A DNA stretch of 33,144 nt, from the IMG/VR virus record IMGVR_UViG_3300031631_000379, positions 1 through 33,144 of that record, one strand, 5' to 3'. The position numbers were made by a program, and so were the translations under genes. The DNA comes from a virus. Below the pieces are notes generated by a model that was not told where the DNA came from, searched no databases, and saw only the letters and a program-made list of their open reading frames with translations. The stretch's first letter is position 1. Each line of letters starts with the position of its first letter. Shown piece by piece: positions 8,432 to 28,206 of this stretch.

Positions 8432-9244
8432 TTAGTTTACTTTAGAACTCCTTCCGTTGTTTTTCATGAATCTGTGCTTTGTCCCACTTTTCGCTGTGAC
8501 TAAAACTTCCGTTATACTATTTTTTGAATATTCTGGATGAGTAAATACGTATACTTTTTCTATTTGATTATCAATCGGTGTTTCTTTTTTTATATTTACG
8601 CTGTTATTTAAGGTTATCATAGCTTTACGTACCGAGGCTGCTTCTTTCGGGTTATCTTGAACTATTAAACCATCTGAATCAAACAGAGGATCAAGTATTT
8701 GCATATTGATCCCTAATTTATGCTGTAAAAAGTCTCGATAAAAGTAACTCCTGTACCCACATTTCCACATGTTAGCTGATTCAGTTATGTTTAAATTATA
8801 GTGGTATTTATACATTAAAAATATCATTATAAATGTCTTCGTGATCAGCTCGTTTGCTTCGTATTGATACACATATGGCAAGTTTTCTGTAAGAGTCTTT
8901 AAATGCCCAATATCCTTACCTGCCCCCATTATCCTATCTAATTGCTGATGGTGGTCCTGGAAAAATAAATAGTCTACATGCTTATTAAAATATTCAATGT
9001 AGGTTGGAAGCTCTATTGGGTATTCAGGTATTGCTCGGGTATTTTTCCAAAGTGCATTAAGCATCATAGTAAAGTGTAATAAATCAACTATCACAATGTC
9101 ATTAGTTTCTTTGAGCTTTGTCAGGCAATTTAAGTATCCCTGGTTCAAAGCCTGTGGTTTTTGCTTTTCTTCAAAGATCATCCAGCCAACCTTTTTATTT
9201 TCGCAAAGAGTTTGAGCGTCTTTAAAGCTATCAATAATTTCCAT
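8432..9244 (-). CDS. Divergent pantothenate-synthetase (PanC)-like protein with degraded active-site motifs
   Basis: Alignment by eye to PanC runs along most of the first 200 residues: MEIIDSFKDAQ (PanC MLIIETLPLLR), LNQGYLNCL (PanC LHDGHMKLV), NDIVIVDLL (ADVVVVSIF), YPIELPTYIEYFNKHVDYLF ([20 protein letters not shown]), DIGHLKTL (RPGHFRGV), and INMQILDPLFDSDGLIVQDN ([20 protein letters not shown] and following N). The catalytic HIGH-like histidine, the GEKD lysine region and the SSRN loop are all altered, so if the match is right this is a pseudoenzyme or a changed-specificity nucleotidyl transferase. The last 70 residues are not PanC-like. It follows the J-type gene after one base, with GGAGA before the ATG, and is the last gene of the virion operon. 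Fold moderately likely; function unknown. Confidence 0.45.
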   Translation of the reverse strand: MEIIDSFKDAQTLCENKKVGWMIFEEKQKPQALNQGYLNCLTKLKETNDIVIVDLLHFTMMLNALWKNTRAIPEYPIELPTYIEYFNKHVDYLFFQDHHQQLDRIMGAGKDIGHLKTLTENLPYVYQYEANELITKTFIMIFLMYKYHYNLNITESANMWKCGYRSYFYRDFLQHKLGINMQILDPLFDSDGLIVQDNPKEAASVRKAMITLNNSVNIKKETPIDNQIEKVYVFTHPEYSKNSITEVLVTAKSGTKHRFMKNNGRSSKVN

Positions 9245-9245
9245 A

Positions 9246-12200
9246 TTATTCTCCTATTGCAATCCAACTCAAGGAGCCCTCAGCAACTTGAGTTGAGCTT
9301 GAATTAGTGGTAACATAATTTAAGTCTGCATGGGCATAACCAACAATGGCACATCCGCTGTCTGATGTTACTGTACATTTTATAGTCGCTTTTACAAAAC
9401 AAGTTCTGATTGCACCTACCCCAAAATTGAGAGTTTTTGAATAAGAACCCGATATAGTTCCGTTGGTTGCTTTATCCACTACTGTATAATCGACGCCATC
9501 AATATTTATATAGATAGTAACATAACCAGGAGCGCCGGATAAAGAACCACAAAAAGACTTTTCCGAATTGTAGTCCTCTTTCCTTACGGATATAAAGTAA
9601 TCACCAAATACTGTTATACTATCTACATCTGCAATCGACGTTCGTGTGGGTGTTGACTTGGTGCTATACTCATTGCTAAACCATACCTGGTCATTATAGG
9701 TCACTGATCCTGGTGTATCTGAAAGGAGCAAATTCGCAATTGCATCGAAAGAATACACGCCGTCTGCCGTACCTGTTAGATTTTCCGCAGCACACACAAT
9801 TCTTTGATTGGACGTGCTGTGATCCTTATTGTAGACCTGTAAGTCAAATGGTGACACAATTACCTGGGGCTCGGACGAAAAATAGCCTGGTATGGGAACT
9901 GAATTTCCTGATGGTACCTCCCCTCCTTCAATTCGTTTTAAAGACTTTGCGTGCCTGTGTGTAGCATTTATGTACCTGTAAAAATCAATATCTCCAGCAG
10001 TTAATAAACAATAATCAGATACCCCGTCAATATTCCCTATTTGCAACTCTGATCCTGCATGAATCTTTCCACCATCAATTGTGGTAGAATCCTCGGGGTA
10101 CTCCCAGGCTGAATTGTTAGTGGCAAAAGGTGCCCATGAAAGAATCCGAATACCTGCATTATTGGTAACAAAAGAAGAGTCAATATAAAAAGTCTGTCCT
10201 GCCGTTGTAGTATGGTGTTCTGGCTGTTCTACGCCATTGATGTAATACCGAACAGTGCTTATTCCGTCATAAATAATTTCGAATGTATCATCGAGAGTTA
10301 CTGTAACGGAGGTTGTATTCACGGCTGATTGACCAACAGCCCAACAATCTGAAAGAATAGAAGAAGACAGGTACATACAAAACCCAATTGTATCCCAATC
10401 GTGATCACTACTTGGATCGAACAAACTAAAACCCACCATCGTAGTACAGATTGCCTCTCTGCGAAACTCTAACCTGCAAGCACCAGTGATACCTTTTGTC
10501 CCCCAAACTGATTCTCCCCAAGAAGCCCCACCTGTCTTCATGATAACATTACCAACGATTGATGTATTGGCTGTTCCCATTAGAAGTGTAAGAGCTGTTT
10601 TGGTGTAGTCGGTAACATCTGCACCATCAGTGACACCGTCAAGCTTTTCGCCTGCGGCTGGGTCTAAGTCAGACAGAACCACAGAATCGCTCGGCTCGAC
10701 AAAAGAGGACTCATAAGACAATAACAACTGCCCGTCATATTTTGAATAAAGCCGTATCTCATATGCTATCGTCCCGGGGACAATATACCCAAGGACACTG
10801 ACACGGTTTTTACTTGCGGAGTGAAATGTGCCTAAGCTCGTGACTACCAAATCAGATGATACAACTAAGTCTTTCCAGATCCCAGTTATGTCCCAGTTTA
10901 TCGTGCGCCCCAGTTCCCCCCAAGCAACCGTTACATTTTCTATCGCCATGCTGCTTGTCGGGATAATAGCCGTTGTAATCGTTGGGGTGCCGTATACCCC
11001 GTTTTTGTTATAAGGAGTAACTTCAAAATCATACGAACCAGGGGTATACCAAACCATATATTCTGTATTTGTATCCGCACTCACAGATATTGTAATTTCA
11101 TTTAAAGGATCTGTAACATCTTTTAATAGATACCCAACAGCGCCTACGTCTGCAACGCTGTCCCACGTAAAACCAAAACCATCTGCGGTTTGGCTGATAA
11201 CGAAATTGCTTACGTAAACCTCTGAAAAGATATCAACAAACTCAACGTCATCCTGGGAAACATATTTACTAATTGACTGATACCCCACCCTGCCCCATGC
11301 TGAAATAGAAGCCATTGTGAACTCTAACGCCCAATTTTGATCATTCGGACATATATCCGTTACCTCTATTACAAAACCCCCATCTTGTAACGGTTTTCTA
11401 TCGGATCGCCACGCCGTGGGTGCATACTCCCCGCCTAAATGTATCCTATAAAAAAGTATAACTTCCTTTATCGACACTTTATTATCATATGGTAGCAGAT
11501 AATTAATATACAGTTGCTTTTTTATACTTCCGTCATCAAAAAAAGAACCACCCTCTATTTCTCTAAATTCAGGGGGGGCAGGTAAGAGCGTTGTTCCATC
11601 AATGGGCGTCGTAACGTTAGGCTCATACGCCGGTATTTCACCCTGGTCTGCAAGGTGGATATCAGGCGCCGCATCAATTAATGTCAATGTAGCAGACAGA
11701 TCAGGATTGTATTCAATTTCTTTTATTTTTACGTCAATGGACTCTTTGCCGGTTTCACCATAAGTTACAAGGTCACCAACCTTAGCACCGGTGGCGTCTG
11801 CTGATAGGATAATTTCATTATAGGTTCCTGCGGTCATATCAATTGGAATAACTATTTGAGTATTGTCATCTTTTCTGACCCGGACAGCATATGTTTTTCC
11901 GTCCTCAAATAAAAAATCTTCATCTACGACAATTGTTCGCAAGTCTGTAATTTCCCTGATTCGGCCCGCACCTGACCCAACCAATAGAACATCATGAACC
12001 AAGGTAACAAGATCGCCCCTACGGGCCACAAGGTTTTCAAAATCCATACTAACGCTGTATATCTCAGGCCGAAGTTTAGCAGCCGCAAAAAAATACCGCC
12101 CATCTTTATACGCTTGATCCGCACTGGTCACGCCAACCGTTACTAATTCTTCAAATTCTGTCGTGTTTGTAATATCGTATCCGTCATTATACACCACCAC

Positions 12201-14531
12201 AATGTCTTGCTGCCAATTATCGGGATTAATGTATTTAACTTTTAATGCATGTGGAGCTTTTATAAATGTCTTACTTGCAGAAAAACCCCAAGAATTACGA
12301 GGGGAAATTAATTGGTGGGGCACAGTCTGTTCAGTATCCAAAATGATGGAAAAAAACGAATCAGAAACAGACCACTGCCCACGACCCGTTGTTGACACCA
12401 TCTGCAAATAATCCAGCATTGTGAGCCCGCCGTCATGTACGTTATTGTAAGCAATACTATCGGCTGTATTTATATCTGCCCATTCTTTTATTTTTTCCAC
12501 ATTAATTTGTGAGTAAGGAACTTTATTTGTAACTTGTGGACCATGTAATATGTCAGTGTAGATCCACGCGGGGTTATCTGTTTCCTGAGTCCAAACACCA
12601 TCTTCCAAAACAGGATCAATCCAGTCAGTGCCGTCATAAATAGGCAAGCATGATTTGCCCATAATCGTTACATTATTTACCGCCCCCATTAATTGATTTG
12701 TGGCCTTAATTTTCATGGCCAAAAATTGAAAGTTGTGATCTGTATCAAAAACAGGAGCTTCTTTTTTAACAGAACGAATAGAAGTAACATAAAAATCTGC
12801 AAATACATATTTTTCGTACCCTGTTGTCGTTCTTCTGCTAACAATTTTTATTTCAAAACCCGCCGTGAGTGTTTGAAGCTCAAACGATACGTTTTTTCTT
12901 TGTGGATTTATAATATTATCGCTAAATGTTTTTCGAACTACTGTCCCAAATACGTCGGGGGATGCTGCCCTATAAACATAACTTGATATGGGCACAAACC
13001 CGCTTAATGATGTATCGAGATACTGCAATTTCTGATTTGCAGTATTGTACCAGATCGATCCATCTTTGAATATTTCATCTGCATCTGCCGCGAAAAGTTG
13101 AAGATATGTGTAGGGCGTCCCGTCTACATTCCTTCCACCACCATATGTATCATTTACGGTAGTGAGGAAACTAGCAAAATAAGAAGAAAGATAGCCCATC
13201 CACGAAAAATAAGGATTGCTATACCTTGTGTTATATTCACCAATACTCAGATAAGTCTCACCACCATCCGTAAAATCATAAAGCTGTTCAAGATTATTAG
13301 ATGTCATGAAGAAGGAAAAGTAATCATTCGTCCTGCTATGAGATTCATATGCAGAGTAGGCAGCGGCCATTTGGTTGTACAATTCTGTATCTTCCGGGAT
13401 TTCAGTCCAACCAGACACTCCTGAATAAATTAAGATATCCACGCCGTTTTTAAAAACGAAATTGCGGCCTACCCAAGTGGGGTAAAGCGCGGGATTTACT
13501 ATCAGTGTGTAACCAGCTTGTTCATCAGTCTTTTCAAAAAGATTATGAAATTCTTCTTCTATGCTTGTGGCTTCATGTTTAGCAAGTATCTCTATATCAA
13601 CGGACGCATAGGACGAAGACCCTTCTGCACTTAGTGATCTTAATCCCTGGGGAAATTCAAAATCAATCGAAACGGTTCTGTCTGTAACATCATCCTCTAC
13701 CGCCCTGATTAGTTCAGTGGATATCCCTTCATGAGCAGGGTTTGCATCCTGCAAAACACTACCCACATAATATTCAGTTGAGCATAATCGTATATTTTGG
13801 GGGGCCTCCACGACACCGTTTTTATATATATTTATTTCATCAATATTGCCAACTTCGTATGATACTCCCTCATAGCTCTCTATTCCAACGTCCCCTATTT
13901 GGATATCGGAAATATTCATCGGGGCATACCCCAGACAAAACAGGAGGTTGACATATTGATCGTCGCCAATTACCTCGGTATACCCATTAGCCCCAAACGA
14001 AGGTGCATACCGGACAAAGCCGTACAGCTTCTGAACCGCTCCATAATGTCGATAGGCATTTTCTCCAGACGTTATTGAAAAACTTTGAGCCGGTTGCTCT
14101 ATTGCGGTTTGTCCCTGGGCGAGTGTCGCGCTTTGTGGTGGTATTAGTGCATTGACAGCAAGGCCGCCTGCCATTGTGATTGCACCGCTTACCATGGCGC
14201 CTGCCATGTCGGAATACAACCCGGCAACTCCAGCCCCCATATACGCTGCAAACACCGCCACCACGACCATGAGGACAACACGTAAGACATTCTTGCCACC
14301 ATCCCCACCTGCCGGAAAAATAGAGACAACTATCAGATCGTGATCTTTGACTTGATATTTGTCCCACAACCCCCTGGGGATCACTTGGTCGTTTACCATG
14401 ACTTGCGTACCATCCATGGGGTTCGGCCCAACGATATGTGAGATAGTACTACCGGCTGGTGTCACTGCATTATAAAATACATCCGGCGAAAACAGACGGG
14501 GGGCGATGATTATATTTGCATTATCCGACAT
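9246..14531 (-). CDS. J-type central tail tip / host-specificity protein
   Basis: A protein of 1761 residues forming the tail tip and contacting the receptor, like lambda gpJ. The first 90 residues form a beta-grasp (gpI-like) domain ending DLIVVSIFPAGGDGG, followed by a hydrophobic segment (about 95-145) and the conserved J region (YGAVQKLYGFVRYAP; INVEKIKEWADINTAD). A fibronectin III-like domain lies near 1105-1185, a concanavalin-like sugar-binding region near 1345-1500, and a beta-rich C-terminus from 1525. I chose ATG 14531: AAGGA lies 10 bases upstream, inside the codons of a longer TTG frame (14549). It overlaps the NlpC gene by 11 bases. GC content is clearly higher than in the left block and the head genes. 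Family is sure; domain limits are approximate. Confidence 0.88.
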   Translation of the reverse strand: MSDNANIIIAPRLFSPDVFYNAVTPAGSTISHIVGPNPMDGTQVMVNDQVIPRGLWDKYQVKDHDLIVVSIFPAGGDGGKNVLRVVLMVVVAVFAAYMGAGVAGLYSDMAGAMVSGAITMAGGLAVNALIPPQSATLAQGQTAIEQPAQSFSITSGENAYRHYGAVQKLYGFVRYAPSFGANGYTEVIGDDQYVNLLFCLGYAPMNISDIQIGDVGIESYEGVSYEVGNIDEINIYKNGVVEAPQNIRLCSTEYYVGSVLQDANPAHEGISTELIRAVEDDVTDRTVSIDFEFPQGLRSLSAEGSSSYASVDIEILAKHEATSIEEEFHNLFEKTDEQAGYTLIVNPALYPTWVGRNFVFKNGVDILIYSGVSGWTEIPEDTELYNQMAAAYSAYESHSRTNDYFSFFMTSNNLEQLYDFTDGGETYLSIGEYNTRYSNPYFSWMGYLSSYFASFLTTVNDTYGGGRNVDGTPYTYLQLFAADADEIFKDGSIWYNTANQKLQYLDTSLSGFVPISSYVYRAASPDVFGTVVRKTFSDNIINPQRKNVSFELQTLTAGFEIKIVSRRTTTGYEKYVFADFYVTSIRSVKKEAPVFDTDHNFQFLAMKIKATNQLMGAVNNVTIMGKSCLPIYDGTDWIDPVLEDGVWTQETDNPAWIYTDILHGPQVTNKVPYSQINVEKIKEWADINTADSIAYNNVHDGGLTMLDYLQMVSTTGRGQWSVSDSFFSIILDTEQTVPHQLISPRNSWGFSASKTFIKAPHALKVKYINPDNWQQDIVVVYNDGYDITNTTEFEELVTVGVTSADQAYKDGRYFFAAAKLRPEIYSVSMDFENLVARRGDLVTLVHDVLLVGSGAGRIREITDLRTIVVDEDFLFEDGKTYAVRVRKDDNTQIVIPIDMTAGTYNEIILSADATGAKVGDLVTYGETGKESIDVKIKEIEYNPDLSATLTLIDAAPDIHLADQGEIPAYEPNVTTPIDGTTLLPAPPEFREIEGGSFFDDGSIKKQLYINYLLPYDNKVSIKEVILFYRIHLGGEYAPTAWRSDRKPLQDGGFVIEVTDICPNDQNWALEFTMASISAWGRVGYQSISKYVSQDDVEFVDIFSEVYVSNFVISQTADGFGFTWDSVADVGAVGYLLKDVTDPLNEITISVSADTNTEYMVWYTPGSYDFEVTPYNKNGVYGTPTITTAIIPTSSMAIENVTVAWGELGRTINWDITGIWKDLVVSSDLVVTSLGTFHSASKNRVSVLGYIVPGTIAYEIRLYSKYDGQLLLSYESSFVEPSDSVVLSDLDPAAGEKLDGVTDGADVTDYTKTALTLLMGTANTSIVGNVIMKTGGASWGESVWGTKGITGACRLEFRREAICTTMVGFSLFDPSSDHDWDTIGFCMYLSSSILSDCWAVGQSAVNTTSVTVTLDDTFEIIYDGISTVRYYINGVEQPEHHTTTAGQTFYIDSSFVTNNAGIRILSWAPFATNNSAWEYPEDSTTIDGGKIHAGSELQIGNIDGVSDYCLLTAGDIDFYRYINATHRHAKSLKRIEGGEVPSGNSVPIPGYFSSEPQVIVSPFDLQVYNKDHSTSNQRIVCAAENLTGTADGVYSFDAIANLLLSDTPGSVTYNDQVWFSNEYSTKSTPTRTSIADVDSITVFGDYFISVRKEDYNSEKSFCGSLSGAPGYVTIYINIDGVDYTVVDKATNGTISGSYSKTLNFGVGAIRTCFVKATIKCTVTSDSGCAIVGYAHADLNYVTTNSSSTQVAEGSLSWIAIGE

Positions 14532-14910
14532 ATTTATAAAATCCTTCAAAAATATTTTCCCAATTTAAGTCCGTATATTGCTCTATACAGGCGTCTTTTC
14601 CTTTTTCAACGTGAAGCATTTCAACCGGGTTAAGATATATGGCTATGTGCCGGGGATCACCGACAATGTTAAAAACAATAACGTCCCCAAATTCTGGACA
14701 GGATGTGGGCTCCCATTGCTTTTCTGCTTGCTCTCTGATTAGCCTCGAGATAGTAGCTGGTCCTTTGTTTTCTTCCTCTTCAAGCCTGGGTAGTAAAATG
14801 CCGTATTCTGCTTCATAAAAAATACAAACAAGCCCCCAGCAATTAGATCCTTCCCACCCACATGCCCCTTTTCCATACGGTATACCAATGTATTTCCGAA
14901 GGTTAATCAT
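14521..14910 (-). CDS. NlpC/P60-type tail tip peptidase (lambda gpK-like)
   Basis: A 129-residue papain-like cell-wall hydrolase domain carried in the tail tip, which would cut peptide bonds in peptidoglycan during DNA entry. Catalytic residues are visible: C24 in GSNCWGLVCIFY, H88 in DPRHIAIYL and H100 in EMLHV; the PEFGDVIVF strand before the histidine is typical. It lacks the Mov34/JAB domain found fused in lambda gpK. It overlaps the upstream DUF1833 gene by four bases (ATGA) and the downstream J-type gene by 11. The order L-K-J (with I fused to J) follows lambda. Confidence 0.85.
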   Translation of the reverse strand: MINLRKYIGIPYGKGACGWEGSNCWGLVCIFYEAEYGILLPRLEEEENKGPATISRLIREQAEKQWEPTSCPEFGDVIVFNIVGDPRHIAIYLNPVEMLHVEKGKDACIEQYTDLNWENIFEGFYKYVG

Positions 14911-21797: not shown

Positions 21798-22175
21798 TTA
21801 ACTTTCAAAGGATGTAACTGCTGTAATACTTGCCATTTTCTTGTTAATAGCAGCATCCATCAGTCCAGTTGTGTCAAGCATTTTAACAGTTTGCCCATAA
21901 GTAGAGGCACTGAGTCCATGTCCTAATTTAGAATATTGCTCACTGGTATCACCACCAATTTCTTCCCTAATTGTTTGTCTTTCAAAAGACATACTTAAAA
22001 AATGAGCAGATAACCATCTTTCTATTTCTTTTAACAAATCACTTGAAAGACCACTATCAGCTAATATGCTTGTAACGAGTAAATTTGCAGATTCTATAAA
22101 CACATCAATTATATAATCTTCTTGTGTTGTGGTTATAATTTGTTTTACTTCTGTTGCTGTTACTCTTTTAGCCAT
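21798..22175 (-). CDS. Head-tail adaptor (gp6-like connector)
   Basis: A 125-residue helical protein with the layout of gp6/gp15-type adaptors: an N-terminal helix (ATEVKQIITTTQEDYIIDVF), a central LLKEIERWLSAHFLSMSFER, and a C-terminal GLSASTYGQTVKMLDTTGLM that often reads similarly in such connectors. It would form a ring beneath the portal. It is the first gene after the modification cassette; AAGGGG lies before the ATG, only a few bases after the sulfotransferase stop. Confidence 0.7.
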   Translation of the reverse strand: MAKRVTATEVKQIITTTQEDYIIDVFIESANLLVTSILADSGLSSDLLKEIERWLSAHFLSMSFERQTIREEIGGDTSEQYSKLGHGLSASTYGQTVKMLDTTGLMDAAINKKMASITAVTSFES

Positions 22176-22185
22176 AATACACCCC

Positions 22186-22905
22186 TTATTTATTTTGACG
22201 TGCTTTCCACAACTTAGGCTCGACGAAATTCATTATTTCTTTACTTTTCCATTCTAAACCCAACCATTCGATTGTTTCCCTCATTTGCCCATAGTCTGAG
22301 TTTACCATTCTTTCTGGATACACCATTTTAACATTAGCACCACTTTGAACTATTTCATAGAACTTTTCTTCATGCTTATGCACCCATTGCAACCACCCAT
22401 CATATTCATTGTCCACTTTTGCTTGTCTTTGTACTCTTGGTAATGCGTAAGCACTCATAAATCCTGTCTGCATACAAGAATTTATGATGTCAGGTGTTTT
22501 ACGTCTAACAATAATCCATTTACTATCAGGGAAAGCATACTTCCAACAAGGCCACGTTAACGCCATTTTAGCACACTTCCACATCCATGGTGTTTCTTCT
22601 TTCCACCCTTGCTTTTTTATTTCTTTAATTACAGCTTCTTTTAGATCGTGTGGTATAATTATATTTTTAGTTTCGGGTAAAGGAAATTGTCCCTTTCTAT
22701 CTGCCCCAATACTGAATAACAAAGGCTTTATGATGTTTTCTCTTAATGCGTGATTCTCAAACATACCTTTAGCATTGTGCTTGGATGGCCCAACAGTATC
22801 CCCCTTCCAGGCACCACATATATTTATTACCCCTGCCACAAGGGATGTTCCAGAACGAGCACAACCAACAATAATTACGGGCCTATCAGTATGATCTTTA
22901 CGCAT
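22186..22905 (-). CDS. PAPS-dependent sulfotransferase
   Basis: Would transfer a sulfuryl group from PAPS to a sugar or tyrosine hydroxyl. The 5'-phosphosulfate loop appears at residues 10-25 (VIIVGCARSGTSLVAGVI), and the 3'-phosphate site at 131-143 (IIVRRKTPDIINS; R135 and S143 have the R-x7-S spacing of the family). Several Trp and a C-terminal ETIEWLGLEW helix also fit. Length 239 is on the short side of the family. It is the last gene of a five-gene modification cassette and overlaps the GT2 gene by eight bases, with AAGGA before the ATG. No PAPS synthesis genes are in the window, so it would use host PAPS. Family quite sure; acceptor unknown, perhaps a virion-bound glycan. Confidence 0.82.
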   Translation of the reverse strand: MRKDHTDRPVIIVGCARSGTSLVAGVINICGAWKGDTVGPSKHNAKGMFENHALRENIIKPLLFSIGADRKGQFPLPETKNIIIPHDLKEAVIKEIKKQGWKEETPWMWKCAKMALTWPCWKYAFPDSKWIIVRRKTPDIINSCMQTGFMSAYALPRVQRQAKVDNEYDGWLQWVHKHEEKFYEIVQSGANVKMVYPERMVNSDYGQMRETIEWLGLEWKSKEIMNFVEPKLWKARQNK

Positions 22906-23611
22906 GATTACGTATCCTTAGTTTATTTAATTCCATTTGATACAGGTCTTTATTACGTTTTAGCAAAGATCTGTACGCCATTGGTCTTAATTTTTGATGC
23001 CATTGGTGGCAAACAACCATATCACCTTTATCAATAAATTCTAATTTAGCCCTTAAAACACTATCTCTAAAGGAGTTATCATCATAACCATAGCCCACTG
23101 TATACCTTTCATCAAAACCACCAATTTTAGCATAGTTCTTTTTACTTATACCACAACAAAAATGATATTTGGTATCTTTATGAGTAATGTGGTGATACCA
23201 CGTCTTCATTTCTCCATTTTGATCTAAAGATTTACAACTACAAACAACATATTTATCCGGATCTTCATCAAATATCTGGTCCATACCCTTCAAAATATCT
23301 GTTTCATGTAAACATTCTGGATTAGATACAATAATGAAATCACCTTCACTGACATCAAACCCTTCATTGAAAGCTGTACTGGGACTGAAACTCACTTTCG
23401 CTTTTGTTCTTATTAATTTGATAGGGATACAATCTTTATACAAATCAATTAATAAAATTAATCTGAAGTGCATATCATCATTTTGTTTTTGGTCTTCGAT
23501 TATAACAACTTCATAATCATCCCTATCGCTATACCATTTAATAAACGATTCAAAAGTATTACTTAATTGATCTATCCGGTTATAATAAGGGAACAAAATA
23601 GAGTATTTCAT
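22898..23611 (-). CDS. GT2-family glycosyltransferase
   Basis: A 237-residue GT-A glycosyltransferase. It begins YSILFPYYNRIDQLSNTFES, the usual GT2 start, has YEVVIIEDQ for nucleotide binding, FNEGFDVSEGDFIIVSNPEC where the more common DxD is replaced by NPE, and GGFDERYTVGYGYDDNSFRD near the acceptor side. The NPE variant is common in phage and protein-glycosylating GT2 enzymes. It begins at a TAATG overlap with the radical SAM gene and ends by overlapping the sulfotransferase. It probably adds a sugar to the same target that the neighbouring enzymes modify. Confidence 0.82.
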   Translation of the reverse strand: MKYSILFPYYNRIDQLSNTFESFIKWYSDRDDYEVVIIEDQKQNDDMHFRLILLIDLYKDCIPIKLIRTKAKVSFSPSTAFNEGFDVSEGDFIIVSNPECLHETDILKGMDQIFDEDPDKYVVCSCKSLDQNGEMKTWYHHITHKDTKYHFCCGISKKNYAKIGGFDERYTVGYGYDDNSFRDSVLRAKLEFIDKGDMVVCHQWHQKLRPMAYRSLLKRNKDLYQMELNKLRIRNHA

Positions 23612-24576
23612 TATACAAATACCCCATGATCGTAATGTTCCGTTAAGGTCTCCAAAACATCATTATAAGCTGGATAATAGCATTTTTCACAAATAGACCC
23701 ATCAAATATATTTTGTTGACAAAAGTAAGTGGGAATTTCTTTAATAGAGCACATCCTCATTTGTTTTGGGAATAATCCTTCTGAATCAGGTAAAGCATAT
23801 TGAACACCACAACAAGGGTAAACAAACCCATCAGGGGCAATAACAGGCTTTAATAAACTAATTCTACATTCAGAATTACCCCTTACATAATTACTTCTAT
23901 CTTGGTATAAAACCAAACCATCATCTATTCCCATTTCTTCCAATTGAATTTTAATACTTTCCATACTTACTAAATTATCCAAATCTAATAAATCACTTAC
24001 TAATCTAACATGGGTTAATTTATTCAGATTGGCAAATTGAACAATCTTGGCTAATTTATCAATATTGAACTTGGCAGTCACCACATAACTAATTGCCCAA
24101 TCTATATGAACAGTAGGAATTACCTTCTGCAAAACATTAATCAGTTTATCAATATCCCTATCATCACTGGCACTAACCCTACACCAAGTTAAAAGATTTA
24201 AATAATATTTATGTTTTTCTAAAAGTAATCCATTTGAAACCATACCGGAAGATATTCTCAAATCTGATAAAATTTTAAGTAATTCTGATAATTCTTCATA
24301 ACAACAGGGTTCCCCCCCTCCGGTTATTGTAACAGCTTTGGTTCCTAATTTATAAAAATCAATAATAGTTTTTTTCAATTCTTCTATACTTAATTGCTGT
24401 GTTTTTTCTCTTTTGGAACAAGAACAAAAGGAACAGTTTAAATTACAAATATTTGTTGGGCATAATTGAACGTGGATAGGATGAATAAAACCAAAATTAG
24501 ACACACACAATTCCTTTGCTTTCAAAACTTTAGATGGGTATATGTTTGACGATGAGTATGAAGTTGATTTATCCAA
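23611..24576 (-). CDS. Radical SAM enzyme with SPASM-like C-terminal cysteines
   Basis: A 321-residue radical SAM protein. The cluster motif C44-x3-C48-x2-C51 (CNLNCSFC) is intact, followed by TITGGGEP at 83-90 (SAM-binding GGE region). The C-terminal part has KPVIAPDGFVYPCCG and C237, C255, C256, C276, C286, C296 and C299, typical of SPASM/twitch domains that hold auxiliary Fe-S clusters. It starts at TTG 24576 with a perfect GGAGG before it, overlapping the GT8-like gene by eight bases. It lies inside a glycosyltransferase/sulfotransferase cassette in a virion operon, so its target may be a sugar, a nucleotide-sugar or a structural protein side chain. The substrate cannot be read from sequence. 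Confidence 0.85.
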   Translation of the reverse strand: MDKSTSYSSSNIYPSKVLKAKELCVSNFGFIHPIHVQLCPTNICNLNCSFCSCSKREKTQQLSIEELKKTIIDFYKLGTKAVTITGGGEPCCYEELSELLKILSDLRISSGMVSNGLLLEKHKYYLNLLTWCRVSASDDRDIDKLINVLQKVIPTVHIDWAISYVVTAKFNIDKLAKIVQFANLNKLTHVRLVSDLLDLDNLVSMESIKIQLEEMGIDDGLVLYQDRSNYVRGNSECRISLLKPVIAPDGFVYPCCGVQYALPDSEGLFPKQMRMCSIKEIPTYFCQQNIFDGSICEKCYYPAYNDVLETLTEHYDHGVFV

Positions 24577-25270
24577 AATACCTCCAATATTTATCTAAAG
24601 AATTGCTTAATTTATCAGATTCATTTACCAGTGTATGTAACCTTGGTTTACCTGACCAAGTTACAACAGGAGCACCATCTAAACAATCTGGATCGTCTTT
24701 CAATTTCTTTTTGCCCACAATATAATTATCTGGCAAGAAGTCTTGGATTCTTTTGACTTTATCAAATCCAATTGTTTTCCCAATAAATCCCTGATCCCCA
24801 TGTCTCCAATCAAAATGGGAATCATTCATGTGGGTTTCTGGATCAATTTTAAACTGTTCATAAACCTTAGAATACTTATAAAAGGAACCCGTCATTAAAC
24901 CGGAAGCAAAATTTACCCCATTAGGGGGCCTAAATCGTTGATTAAAGCCCTTTAAGGCTAAAAAGGGTGCTTTGGTACTAAGTAACAATAAATCGTCAAT
25001 ATTCCCTTTTATAATCGTGTCCAAGTCAAAGAATACAGAAGGGGCTTTTGACAGGTCTGGTCTAAACAATTCTATTTTAGACCACCACCCAGGCCAATTA
25101 TGTTTCAATGGGATTGTTTCACAAAAATCTACTGAAAGATCATCAGTTAAACAAACAAAGTCAAAAGGAACATCAGTATTAAGTTTACAGGCTTTTTTCA
25201 ACCTATAAACATAATCCTGGTCATAAGAACCACCTGATTTTAAAACACACCTAATTTCTATTTTCTTCAT
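24569..25270 (-). CDS. GT8-like glycosyltransferase
   Basis: A 233-residue GT-A glycosyltransferase. SVFFDLDTIIKGNIDDLL contains the metal-binding D82-L-D84, and HNWPGWWSKIELFRP before it and HGDQGFIGK later fit GT8-like enzymes that use UDP- or similar nucleotide sugars. It begins inside the end of the MptE-like gene (20-base overlap) after a GGGG-rich site. There is no membrane segment, so it acts in the cytoplasm where virions assemble. Donor and acceptor are unknown. Confidence 0.75.
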   Translation of the reverse strand: MKKIEIRCVLKSGGSYDQDYVYRLKKACKLNTDVPFDFVCLTDDLSVDFCETIPLKHNWPGWWSKIELFRPDLSKAPSVFFDLDTIIKGNIDDLLLLSTKAPFLALKGFNQRFRPPNGVNFASGLMTGSFYKYSKVYEQFKIDPETHMNDSHFDWRHGDQGFIGKTIGFDKVKRIQDFLPDNYIVGKKKLKDDPDCLDGAPVVTWSGKPRLHTLVNESDKLSNSLDKYWRYFG

Positions 25271-26012
25271 CCATCATCCCCATAACATCAGATAAACTCA
25301 TTTTAAGAAAAGCATTTATGTTACTTTTTGGATTAACATTTATTATTTCAATACCTAATTTTTTTGCATCAGTCGCCACCCTACCCCAACCAACGGATTG
25401 TTTTTTAAAAAGATATTCTGATTTTTCTTTATCAGGAGTACTTTTAGGGCACTTCTTGCCCCTTTTTGTTTGAAAAAAATTAGGTGTTTTGCTTTTATCA
25501 GGGTATCCAGTATGCCAATGCACTCTGCCATCATTAAAAGAATACATATCTAATCCTAATATAAAAATACGTGTTGCCCCTAAATGATGGGCCAAGTCAA
25601 TTGCACTCCCACCTGAATTTTTAGTTATCCAAGAAACTTGACTTCTATTCTTTGTCAGCCCCTTAGACATATTTCTGTGTAGGTACTTTATGCTATCAAA
25701 AGAATCACTAGAAAACTTACCAGCACTTGACACCTTTAAACCTGCATATGTATTGAATTGGGACTTATGTTCAGTGTAGGTATCACTATCACCCCAATAC
25801 GCAACGTCAACCCAATTTCCTAAGAAAGCTGCTATGTTTACACCTATTACCCTGTACTTATGAATACAGGACATATAATCACCATAAGTTTTAAATTCTT
25901 CTGGTGATTCTGGAATAAAATCATCTGGAATGTTGAATTGTTCGGAAACGGAACTTCCGCCTCCTATAATCCAACAAGATCCAGACCAAATTTTAGGTGC
26001 TAACCATTCCAT
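25251..26012 (-). CDS. MptE/DUF115-like protein (MAF glycosyltransferase-type fold)
   Basis: A 253-residue protein with the pattern of the DUF115/MptE-like group, which includes motility-accessory-factor sugar (nonulosonic acid) transferases. CWIIGGGSSVSE (13-24) is the nucleotide loop, and KNSGGSAIDLAHHLGATRIF then ILGLDM (about 131-156) is the second conserved block. The YRVIGVNIAAFL and DVAYWGDSDTY stretches fit too. It is the first gene of the five-gene cassette and starts two bases after the preceding stop. It may attach or prime a sugar on a structural protein. The fold call is fair; an alternative is another type of Rossmann-fold transferase. Confidence 0.65.
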   Translation of the reverse strand: MEWLAPKIWSGSCWIIGGGSSVSEQFNIPDDFIPESPEEFKTYGDYMSCIHKYRVIGVNIAAFLGNWVDVAYWGDSDTYTEHKSQFNTYAGLKVSSAGKFSSDSFDSIKYLHRNMSKGLTKNRSQVSWITKNSGGSAIDLAHHLGATRIFILGLDMYSFNDGRVHWHTGYPDKSKTPNFFQTKRGKKCPKSTPDKEKSEYLFKKQSVGWGRVATDAKKLGIEIINVNPKSNINAFLKMSLSDVMGMMDEENRN

Positions 26013-26014
26013 AC

Positions 26015-26419
26015 TTATTCTGTTGTATCCGTGCCTAAAGGATCACTACCATCTTCATTTACAACTTTCTCATCGTCTTCTGTATCTTCTTCCTCTTCTT
26101 CCTCTTCACCAGTAATGAACTGTTTTGCATCTTTAGCTCGCATAGCTTCATCATTAAGTGTCTCACCAGTAACCTTATTGATTACATCATACCAACCGTT
26201 ACCCCTGGACTTAATACCTAAAGAAATTCCCCCGTTTAATGTGCTATTAGCAGGAGGATTCAAACATTCAAATCCTTCAGCAATCAATGGGCTTAACTCA
26301 TTGGCATACAAATACTCACCCTTCCTGACAACCTGCCCATCTCTATGATTATGAACCCCACCCCTGATCTTTTTCCACTTCAGCATTCCTTCAAATTTAC
26401 TCTTTTTTCTTTTAATCAT
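26015..26419 (-). CDS. Acidic capsid-linked hypothetical protein
   Basis: A 134-residue protein just after the major capsid gene. It has a basic N-terminus, GEYLYANELSPLIAEGFECL, and a GWYDVINKVTGETLNDEAMR stretch of a type common in small phage proteins near capsid genes, followed by a very acidic tail (a run of glutamates, then DTEDDE). AAGGA precedes the ATG. Its role is unknown; it may be a minor capsid or linker protein, and by position a candidate acceptor of the glycans made by the next five genes. Confidence 0.6.
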   Translation of the reverse strand: MIKRKKSKFEGMLKWKKIRGGVHNHRDGQVVRKGEYLYANELSPLIAEGFECLNPPANSTLNGGISLGIKSRGNGWYDVINKVTGETLNDEAMRAKDAKQFITGEEEEEEEDTEDDEKVVNEDGSDPLGTDTTE

Positions 26420-26476: not shown

Positions 26477-27565
26477 CTACGCCAATACACAAATCCCACT
26501 ATTACCATCCTGATCAGCCCTTGTCTGAATCACCTGAATAGCCATGACTTTAAAATGGTGCATCAGACCACCCTGTGTACTCCACTGGAGAACTGTAGGT
26601 GCAAATCCATTTACAAGACGTACTGTACTTGAAGTCATTTCTACCATAACAACTGTATCAGCAGCAAGACTATCAGCAACTTTGATGGATTCAATATTAG
26701 AAATTTCAAGGATTCTTGTTCTGGTTGTTTTGGAGTAACCTGTTGTGTAATCCTCATCAAGAACAGTCTCATATGCAGTAGGAATATAAATAACATAAGG
26801 ACCATAATGCTTAGCATCAATCATAGCCTGTTTCATGGCAATTACATCAGCAATAATCAATGCGCCCGTAATACCGGAATCATTCCAATCAATAGACAGG
26901 GATACAGTGTTCTTATCAGAATTTGCTACATATCCTTTTATAGAACCACCACCGTAAGTCAAAAGACTACTTGAACCAAAGATCATGGTTTCAAGTTTTT
27001 CAGCAACCCTGCGTGTACAGGCCTCAGCCATAGTAGTATCAATGGCATCCCCATAAGTTCTGGATGCTTCCAACACTCTCTGAGAAATAGTAAAATCAGA
27101 ATGAATGATAGGAATCGGTAAATACTTTGTTGCAAATACCGGCCTATCATTTTTGTGTTGTGTGGTGGCATCCATGTCAATGTTTGCCTCTCCAGGATCA
27201 TTCATGTCCTGATACTCAAGAACAGTCTTTCCCATTGGATTAGTTAGATTGTAAGTAAGACCTCTGCTTAGAAGATCAGCAGCACCAACCAACCTTTCCC
27301 TTGCAATCTTCTGAACAACTCTATCAATCTCAATCCATTCATCACGTAAGAGTACAGCATTGTTCACCATGCTATTGCCTTTAAACTCAACAGCAATCTG
27401 AGTACCCTTATTATCAATAACCTTATTGACATATGATTTGCCATTTACCATATAAGGTCTAAGATTGTTGGCACTGAACCTACCAGACAATTTTGAACCT
27501 ACCTCTGAATCTGAAAAAGAACCACTTTCCGGATCTACATAGGTTACATTTGTTTCTATTTCCAT
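26477..27565 (-). CDS. Major capsid protein (HK97 fold, encapsulin-like sequence)
   Basis: A 362-residue major capsid protein. The block YLPIPIIHSDFTISQRVLEA, then TYGDAIDTTMAEACTRRVAE, reads like the corresponding region of encapsulin-type HK97-fold shells (PLPIIHxDF, followed by a row of A and R). The gene has the strongest site in the block, AGGAGGAG, as expected for the most abundant virion protein, and follows protease/scaffold and decoration genes. There is no obvious N-terminal delta domain of the classic HK97 type; the first 50 residues are short and polar, so scaffolding may come from the DUF2213 protein. Confidence 0.85.
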   Translation of the reverse strand: MEIETNVTYVDPESGSFSDSEVGSKLSGRFSANNLRPYMVNGKSYVNKVIDNKGTQIAVEFKGNSMVNNAVLLRDEWIEIDRVVQKIARERLVGAADLLSRGLTYNLTNPMGKTVLEYQDMNDPGEANIDMDATTQHKNDRPVFATKYLPIPIIHSDFTISQRVLEASRTYGDAIDTTMAEACTRRVAEKLETMIFGSSSLLTYGGGSIKGYVANSDKNTVSLSIDWNDSGITGALIIADVIAMKQAMIDAKHYGPYVIYIPTAYETVLDEDYTTGYSKTTRTRILEISNIESIKVADSLAADTVVMVEMTSSTVRLVNGFAPTVLQWSTQGGLMHHFKVMAIQVIQTRADQDGNSGICVLA

Positions 27566-27618: not shown

Positions 27619-28206
27619 TATTGCCTATATTGCCTATACAACCATAACCCAAATACGTTTGTCATATCCCAATGTGGCATCAGGTGTTTCCGCACCACTT
27701 GAACCAGAAAGATCAAGTGCTTCCATTGCAATAGCAACTATTTGTTTGTCATAAACAGTAATAGGATCGTCTGAATCAGCAGTATCAGCAACATGCAATG
27801 TTAAGTTACCATTACCAGCACTTTCAAGTTTAGCACCAATAACAACAGCAGCAGAATCATCATTCAAGATTGCAAGAACCCAATCCCCTCTTTGGGGAAT
27901 CCAACACACTGCCCTGCCTGATGTTCCAAAAACAACATCAATACCATTACCCTGATTCTCATCTTCAATGGCAAACATAGGAAAAGCTGAACCACCAGCA
28001 GTTGAGTGTTTCTGAACCTTATCAGTGCTGATAAGTTCTACCATATGCCCAGGATAAAAAGCAGCAGCAGGAATCTTCTCCAATTCTACTCTTTGTGCCT
28101 GTCCCTGTCTTAAAACAATTGTATTTTCAGCCATTTTACTTCCTCCTAATTAATTAATAACCTATCTTATTTAGTAAATTTTACTATTCTTAATCTGTAT
28201 TGCCTA
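27619..28206 (-). repeat. TAGGCAATA 9-mers at the stops of two neighbouring head genes
   Basis: On the minus strand TAGGCAATA begins at the TAG stop of the decoration gene (27636-27628), is repeated directly after it (27627-27619), and occurs once at the TAG stop of the DUF2213 gene (28206-28198). The decoration gene is thus bounded by the same short sequence. It could be a recombination scar or simply chance. Confidence 0.6.
27634..28134 (-). CDS. Head decoration / stabilisation protein
   Basis: A 166-residue small beta-rich protein directly before the major capsid gene, the usual position of capsid decoration proteins such as lambda gpD. VELEKIPAAAFYPGHMVELI and the strand-turn pattern with GTSGRAVCWIPQRGDWVLAI fit this group. 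AGGAGGA lies before the ATG, in line with high expression. It is a second candidate target for the modification cassette because it would be exposed on the capsid surface. Confidence 0.72.
   Translation of the reverse strand: MAENTIVLRQGQAQRVELEKIPAAAFYPGHMVELISTDKVQKHSTAGGSAFPMFAIEDENQGNGIDVVFGTSGRAVCWIPQRGDWVLAILNDDSAAVVIGAKLESAGNGNLTLHVADTADSDDPITVYDKQIVAIAMEALDLSGSSGAETPDATLGYDKRIWVMVV

Follow-up and report, generated by a model that had tools for sequence, protein, structure and literature searches.

What do genes for glycosyltransferases, a radical SAM enzyme and a sulfotransferase do in the middle of a phage head operon? The question is raised by IMG/VR virus record IMGVR_UViG_3300031631_000379, a 33 kb virus record that we analysed over its whole length of 33,144 nucleotides (the window). 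Domain and PHROG searches recognized its structural genes, which comprise portal, MuF, protease, decoration, capsid, tape measure and J-like tail genes. Five intact open reading frames (ORFs) on the minus strand separate the capsid genes from the head-tail adaptor, in the order MptE-like protein, GT8-like glycosyltransferase, radical SAM enzyme, GT2 glycosyltransferase and sulfotransferase. We conclude that this cassette is probably a phage-encoded virion glycosylation island, whose enzymes would build a sulfate-capped glycan on a head protein. Support for virion glycosylation comes from the position of the genes, the predicted fold of the first enzyme, its co-inheritance with the capsid, a gene fusion, donor genes, the chemistry of the remaining cargo, the absence of lipid-carrier genes and the conservation of active sites.

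The five ORFs overlap by 20, 8, 1 and 8 bases in transcription order. The first starts 2 bases after a gene for a small acidic protein, and the last ends 10 bases before the head-tail connector gene (Table 1). Promoter-like and terminator-like matches at the set were no better than those in shuffled sequence. An initial annotation of this DNA had described the ORFs, their coordinates, their overlaps and their place between the capsid genes and the adaptor, as well as the lack of a promoter-like gap, and all of this was borne out. We regard the five ORFs as real genes because catalytic residues are conserved, being kept across 89–160 homologues of the cassette enzymes.

The capsid, sulfotransferase, MptE-like and radical SAM proteins were used to scan viral contigs, yielding 203 sequences, 163 of them non-redundant, and family hidden Markov models (HMMs) built from these contigs were used to read gene order. 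We note that many of the contigs are fragments, that some are related to each other (L008 to L011, L031; L numbers denote loci), and that loci drawn with a gene contain that gene by construction, with the cross counts being the fair numbers. The recurring order was portal, MuF, protease, decoration, major capsid protein (MCP), acidic gene, MptE-like gene, variable genes, sulfotransferase and head-tail genes. An MptE-like gene was present in 91 of 97 contigs with this MCP, two genes downstream of the MCP gene in 80, and this MCP was present in 64 of 68 non-redundant loci drawn with the MptE-like protein. The small acidic gene directly preceded the MptE-like gene in 81 of 91 contigs. At the other end of the slot, the sulfotransferase gene immediately preceded the head-tail adaptor in 21 of 24 loci drawn with it, and was the last gene in 45 of 59 complete slots, which ranged in length from 1.5 to 10.8 kb. 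Phage-encoded glycosyltransferases are linked to structural genes in this group.

The interior of the slot was less constant. MptE-like, GT8-like and sulfotransferase genes occurred together in 28 of the 59 complete slots. The neighbourhood search that the initial annotation had proposed for the five families found all of them in 11 (window included), showing that they do co-occur elsewhere. The majority of slots lacked a radical SAM gene, and the closest relative of the window (L018, capsid 80% identical) had neither the radical SAM nor the GT2 gene. Constant in the slot are the MptE-like gene at its start and, to a lesser degree, the sulfotransferase at its end, while the GT8-like, radical SAM and GT2 genes are exchangeable. 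The initial annotation had the enzymes made with the virion proteins, building and sulfate-capping a glycan on one of them; this fits all of our findings, except that the five genes do not form a fixed unit. No cassette lies between the capsid and head-tail genes of the isolates with the nearest capsids (Brevundimonas MaInes, Halorubrum Hardycor1 and Mannheimia 587AP2), and the genes behind the capsid of Citrobacter K1M are not the cassette. Since the isolates with the nearest capsids lack it, the cassette marks an uncultured lineage. In tblastn searches against isolate phages, the MptE-like and radical SAM proteins gave remote matches only.

Co-inheritance with the capsid was measured as the Mantel correlation of pairwise protein identities among contigs, with permutations. 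Identity of the MptE-like protein followed that of the MCP (r = 0.74, 0/500 permutations) to a degree similar to the decoration protein (r = 0.70) and the acidic protein (r = 0.73), compared with 0.47 for the protease and 0.46 for the head-tail gene. The partial correlation between MCP and MptE-like protein given the decoration protein was 0.60. The GT8-like (r = -0.13), GT2 (r = -0.01) and radical SAM (r = 0.11) proteins did not track the MCP. The sulfotransferase correlated weakly with the MCP (r = 0.28) and at 0.42 with the MptE-like protein. When only single-copy contigs were considered, the values were 0.75 for the MptE-like and -0.12 for the GT8-like protein, and the sulfotransferase correlation (0.18) was no longer clear (23/300). 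Radical SAM and GT2 identities were correlated with each other (r = 0.40, 1/500 permutations), a pair that tends to travel together. Such a pattern would be expected if the genes that build the glycan are exchanged but the first enzyme has to match a head protein.

The initial annotation was right that the first ORF is a gene and called its product MptE-like, but the Pfam MptE-like profile scored 12.9 bits, below the curated cut-off of 34.6, and a predicted Maf/GT42-like fold had been overlooked. The protein matched phrog_4603, "alpha-2,3-sialyltransferase", at 3e-23. An AlphaFold2 model from an alignment of 73 sequences had a predicted local distance difference test (pLDDT) score of 91.9 and a predicted template modelling (pTM) score of 0.89. 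Its top match in the PDB was the Maf flagellin glycosyltransferase 5mu5 (Z 13.7, 200 residues, root-mean-square deviation 4.8, chain positions 260-516). The GT42 sialyltransferases CstI and CstII (2p2v, 1ro8 and others) matched at Z 10.4–12.1, a Pasteurella sialyltransferase at 10.2, M. jannaschii HPPK/MptE at 9.8 and a human sialyltransferase at 8.3; below these came unrelated entries at Z <5. We note that the Maf match came from a second structural aligner and not from plain Foldseek, which placed MptE/HPPK first (E 0.002) and Maf outside its top 50, and that a PDB profile search with the protein returned no GT42 chain up to E 10. The three-domain architecture of Maf, which has accessory domains at both its N- and C-terminal ends, is absent, with 253 residues against 632 in 5mu5 and the central region alone aligning. 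Because only this central domain is present, we call the protein Maf-like rather than a Maf. A pterin kinase role was considered and rejected, given the sub-threshold Pfam score and the sugar context.

Maf enzymes O-glycosylate Ser/Thr of flagellin and can use CMP-Neu5Ac or CMP-Kdo (cytidine monophosphate sugars) as donor, and their central PF01973 domain resembles CstII (PMC11339370). Of the five enzymes, the one with the predicted Maf-like fold points most specifically to modification of a protein. Its domain was fused with the GT8-like domain into one ORF in L008, L010 and L011.

Active sites are conserved as well. In the GT8-like protein, which is without a Pfam match and has a weak PDB match to GT8 5gvv (E 0.04), the DxD aspartates are kept in 97% (D82) and 99% (D84) of 160 homologues. 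The radical SAM ORF has a TTG start with GGAGG upstream of it, and its product scores 52.9 bits against the PF04055 cut-off of 29.5. C44, C48 and C51 of its CX3CX2C motif are present in 100% of 89 homologues. In the same set, C237, C255, C296 and C299 of an auxiliary pattern, CX17C...CX2C, are invariant, making seven invariant cysteines in all, and C256 is also among the four to five conserved auxiliary cysteines. The radical SAM part of the initial annotation therefore stands; the SPASM part does not, as the seven-cysteine pattern with two auxiliary clusters is absent and there was no SPASM match in Pfam. The cysteine pattern is compatible with one auxiliary cluster. The nearest solved relative is MoaA (1tv7, E 1e-12). 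A single-sequence radical SAM scan of viral contigs found one poor locus (L002), and alignments were required. The GT2 and sulfotransferase assignments held, with both proteins above the gathering scores of PF00535 (41.3 bits against 23.3) and PF13469 (39.6 bits against 27). The 5' phosphosulfate loop of the sulfotransferase (R17, S18, G19, T20) and its 3' phosphate-binding R135/S143, eight apart, were kept in 93–100% of 136 homologues; a PDB profile search with this protein gave no matches, and a scan of genome contigs found no relative. Homologues of the radical SAM, GT2 and sulfotransferase proteins had no evident membrane helix by hydropathy.

APS kinase makes 3'-phosphoadenosine 5'-phosphosulfate (PAPS), the sulfate donor. 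Its gene (PF01583, above cut-off) was present in 12 of 50 contigs, and adjoined the sulfotransferase gene in 9 of 10 slots examined, including those of L018 and L003. The window has no APS kinase gene and would therefore rely on host PAPS. In the contig of L082, a gene for KdsB, the CMP-Kdo synthetase, lies between terminase and portal (TIGR00466, 159.6 bits against a cut-off of 155.2). This one gene lends indirect support to a possible transfer of a CMP-nonulosonate or Kdo to protein Ser/Thr by the Maf-like enzyme. Further slot cargo included UDP-GlcNAc 2-epimerase, Polysacc_synt_2 dehydratase, GDP-mannose dehydratase, PfkB kinase, GT11 and many methyltransferases. Neither a Wzx flippase (PF01943) nor a PF02397 lipid-carrier initiating transferase was found in 48 records.

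Together, these observations suggest the following scheme. The genes would be expressed late, in the host cytoplasm, where the Maf-like enzyme would add a first sugar to Ser/Thr of a head protein, the acceptor being the capsid, the decoration or the small acidic protein and the donor possibly a CMP-sugar, for instance CMP-Kdo from the host. The GT8-like and GT2 enzymes may extend the glycan, the radical SAM enzyme may alter a sugar or the modified residue, and the sulfotransferase would cap the chain with sulfate. Swapping of inner genes would change the glycan, while the step that recognizes the protein would stay matched to the capsid, so that one capsid lineage could wear different surface coats. 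Likely uses of such a coat are shielding from binding agents or grazers, or adhesion.

Several observations weigh against glycosylation of a head protein. Genomic linkage alone could raise the correlation between MCP and MptE-like protein, an objection on which the protease bears: it lies equally near the MCP on the other side and reaches only 0.47, versus 0.74. The fold of the first enzyme also includes the MptE kinase and sialyltransferases that act on glycans rather than proteins. A CMP-sugar synthetase was found in only 1 of 98 records and NeuB in none of 46, and for this reason the donors are normally host-made and may not be CMP-sugars. A remote homologue of the small acidic gene is present in Halorubrum phage Hardycor1, which has no cassette, and no cultured member of the cassette-bearing group was found. 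Host lipopolysaccharide at the inner membrane is another substrate on which soluble transferases can act.

The last point bears on the possibility that the cassette alters the host surface (lipopolysaccharide or capsule) in infection, for example against superinfection, and sits in the late operon for timing only. Soluble GT8 and GT2 enzymes can use inner-membrane lipid acceptors, the slot cargo resembles O-antigen gene clusters, and glycosyltransferase and radical-SAM genes in pelagimyophage hypervariable regions have been read this way (PMC7029224). We consider it unlikely, since the flippase and the undecaprenyl-phosphate initiating transferase are absent from the 48 records, the first enzyme is co-inherited with the capsid (r = 0.74), and the slot is fixed right behind the capsid genes and not in an early or lysogeny region. 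The co-inheritance also makes it doubtful, and somewhat more so, that the island modifies a tail or connector protein rather than the head, or acts on a peptide with radical-SAM maturation as the main step: in this group the first enzyme sits behind, and tracks, capsid proteins, and a main step would not be missing from the majority of slots. That idea draws on the radical SAM relatives among neck and tail genes in L171, L185 and L150, the MptE-like gene after tail genes in Caulobacter phage CcrSC, and the several solved radical-SAM relatives that are peptide maturases.

Modification of phage DNA, with hypermodified, glycosylated or sulfated bases, seems highly improbable. Phage glycosyltransferases do modify DNA (PMC7029224), and nucleotide sulfation has been suggested (PMC10829341), but the genes lie in the head operon and the first enzyme resembles Maf and sialyltransferases in its predicted fold. 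Base-modification pathways typically include thymidylate-synthase homologues, and these occurred in only 2 of 48 records, an absence that is weak evidence because the window is a fragment. It is hardly credible that the five genes are unrelated morons, carried as loose cargo at a site that tolerates insertions. The inner genes are exchangeable and slot length is variable (1.5-10.8 kb), as such a site would allow, but the recognizable cargo is mostly sugar, methyl and sulfate chemistry, the slot ends are fixed, MptE-like and GT8-like domains are fused, APS kinase stands beside the sulfotransferase, and active sites are conserved. All of these alternatives are weaker than glycosylation of the virion, and viruses of this group probably give their own particles a sugar coat that can change. 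We give about even chances to the broader proposal that a wide tailed-phage lineage has dedicated protein O-glycosylation. Here a Maf-like enzyme of one domain would start the glycan and evolve together with the capsid, and the capsid-linked slot would be restocked with different glycan genes.

Table 1. Coordinates of the cassette genes, the flanking head genes and a donor-related gene (window positions unless a locus is given)
Feature	Position	Strand	Matches and remarks
Head-tail connector gene, downstream slot end	21798..22175	-	phrog_302, weak, E 0.03
PAPS-type sulfotransferase, 239 aa, usual last slot gene, predicted capping enzyme	22186..22905	-	Sulfotransfer_3 PF13469, 9e-10
GT2 family glycosyltransferase, 237 aa, interior, exchangeable	22898..23611	-	PF00535, 2e-10
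Radical SAM enzyme, 321 aa, interior, exchangeable	23611..24576	-	PF04055, 6.5e-14
GT8-like glycosyltransferase, 233 aa, DxD D82/D84	24569..25270	-	phrog_1962 glycosyltransferase, 2e-34
MptE/DUF115-like protein, 253 aa, predicted Maf/GT42-like glycosyltransferase	25251..26012	-	phrog_4603; AlphaFold2 model; fixed first slot gene
Small capsid-linked protein, acidic C-terminal tail, 134 aa, possible acceptor	26015..26419	-	precedes MptE-like gene
Major capsid protein (MCP), 362 aa, possible acceptor	26477..27565	-	DUF6260, 4.5e-18; phrog_771, 2e-23
Head decoration protein, 166 aa, possible acceptor	27634..28134	-	phrog_766, 5e-6
KdsB gene, unusual place for a sugar-nucleotide gene	L213:4981-5679, contig IMGVR_UViG_3300017971_000301	-	TIGR00466

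Among the flanking genes, the head-tail connector product matches by HMM the gene that follows the MCP and a small gene in Brevundimonas phage MaInes (E 1e-26). The tail of the acidic protein is predicted to be disordered; its model was poor (pTM 0.41), and Foldseek listed no trustworthy match for it. In two relatives (L099:8378-9214 and L102:8904-9650), the capsid and acidic genes are separated by an inserted ORF that by eye resembles a GIY-YIG homing endonuclease. Elsewhere in the window, positions 9246-14549 (minus strand) encode a tail protein of 1767 aa, a relative of lambda J by its match to phrog_31 (E 8e-65), for which the mechanical ORF call gives a TTG start. It is followed at 8432-9244 (minus strand) by a 270-aa ORF without a PHROG or Pfam match, possibly for a fibre or receptor-related protein.

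Relatives of the cassette enzymes also occurred in other settings. A scan of genome contigs with the MptE-like protein found L210, L211 and L212, phage-like contigs of the present group that are binned in metagenome-assembled genomes from three phyla, namely of Deltaproteobacteria, Crocinitomicaceae and Spirochaetota, although the binning may be wrong. In L163 and L200 (15543-16253), the head-tail gene is followed by a second MptE-like ORF, which may serve another acceptor protein. Caulobacter phage CcrSC gp516 (L209:4893-5543; HMM E 8e-41) is an MptE-like gene right after tail and tail-fibre genes, with hypothetical proteins and a methyltransferase behind it; this may be a corresponding island that serves tail proteins. 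Radical SAM relatives lie among neck/connector and tail genes in L171:3464-4483, L185:10001-10978 and L150:6428-7414, in phages that have other structural genes. A GT2 gene is near the radical SAM relative in L171 and L185, and L169 and L174 have such a pair upstream of their portal gene.

Phage particle glycosylation is so far known from a few mycobacteriophages. If our reading is true, glycan-decorated heads would be common among uncultured phages, and surface chemistry would be an exchangeable trait that one enzyme ties to the capsid; this would bear on environmental survival, particle adhesion and recognition. Under the broader proposal above, phages would have "serotypes" of sulfated surface glycans, with a logic like that of O-antigen variation but on a virion protein and without a lipid carrier. 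The cassette would also be a compact, lipid-free system for protein glycosylation and sulfation, with a first enzyme that could be assayed in laboratory E. coli.

Several known systems resemble parts of this arrangement. The Maf flagellin O-glycosyltransferases (PF01973) share the predicted fold, and the parallel would extend to modifying, in the cytoplasm, a surface protein that has yet to self-assemble; in contrast, the phage enzyme has the central Maf-like domain only and is encoded in a phage head operon. CstI and CstII, which act on lipooligosaccharide, share the fold (Z 10.4-12.1), but no sequence-level match to the phage enzyme was found. Pelagimyophages carry GT8 and radical-SAM genes, and their glycosyltransferases have been read as modifying the host O-chain (PMC7029224). 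Their hypervariable regions are likewise variable in glycosyltransferase and radical-SAM content, but are located with tail fibres and not in a capsid-linked slot (PMC7029224). Chloroviruses likewise encode their own carbohydrate enzymes for capsid glycosylation (PMC5408694, PMC9614988), but they are eukaryotic algal viruses unrelated to this head operon. In the mycobacteriophages Che8, Corndog and Myrna, phage glycosyltransferases modify capsid and tail-tube proteins, which shields them from antibodies (Freeman et al. 2023, cited in PMC12363180). The likeness lies in phage-encoded glycosyltransferases with virion-protein targets, which are putative here. As described in the available portion of that source, the mycobacteriophage system rests on individual glycosyltransferases (Che8 gp110, Corndog gp38), and no capsid-linked Maf-like enzyme, sulfotransferase/APS kinase, radical SAM enzyme or exchangeable multi-gene slot is mentioned (PMC12363180). 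We found no description of a slot with Maf-like, sulfotransferase and radical-SAM genes in the open literature, of which our coverage was incomplete. Virion glycosylation itself is already known; what is new is a widespread capsid-linked slot with a Maf-like enzyme.

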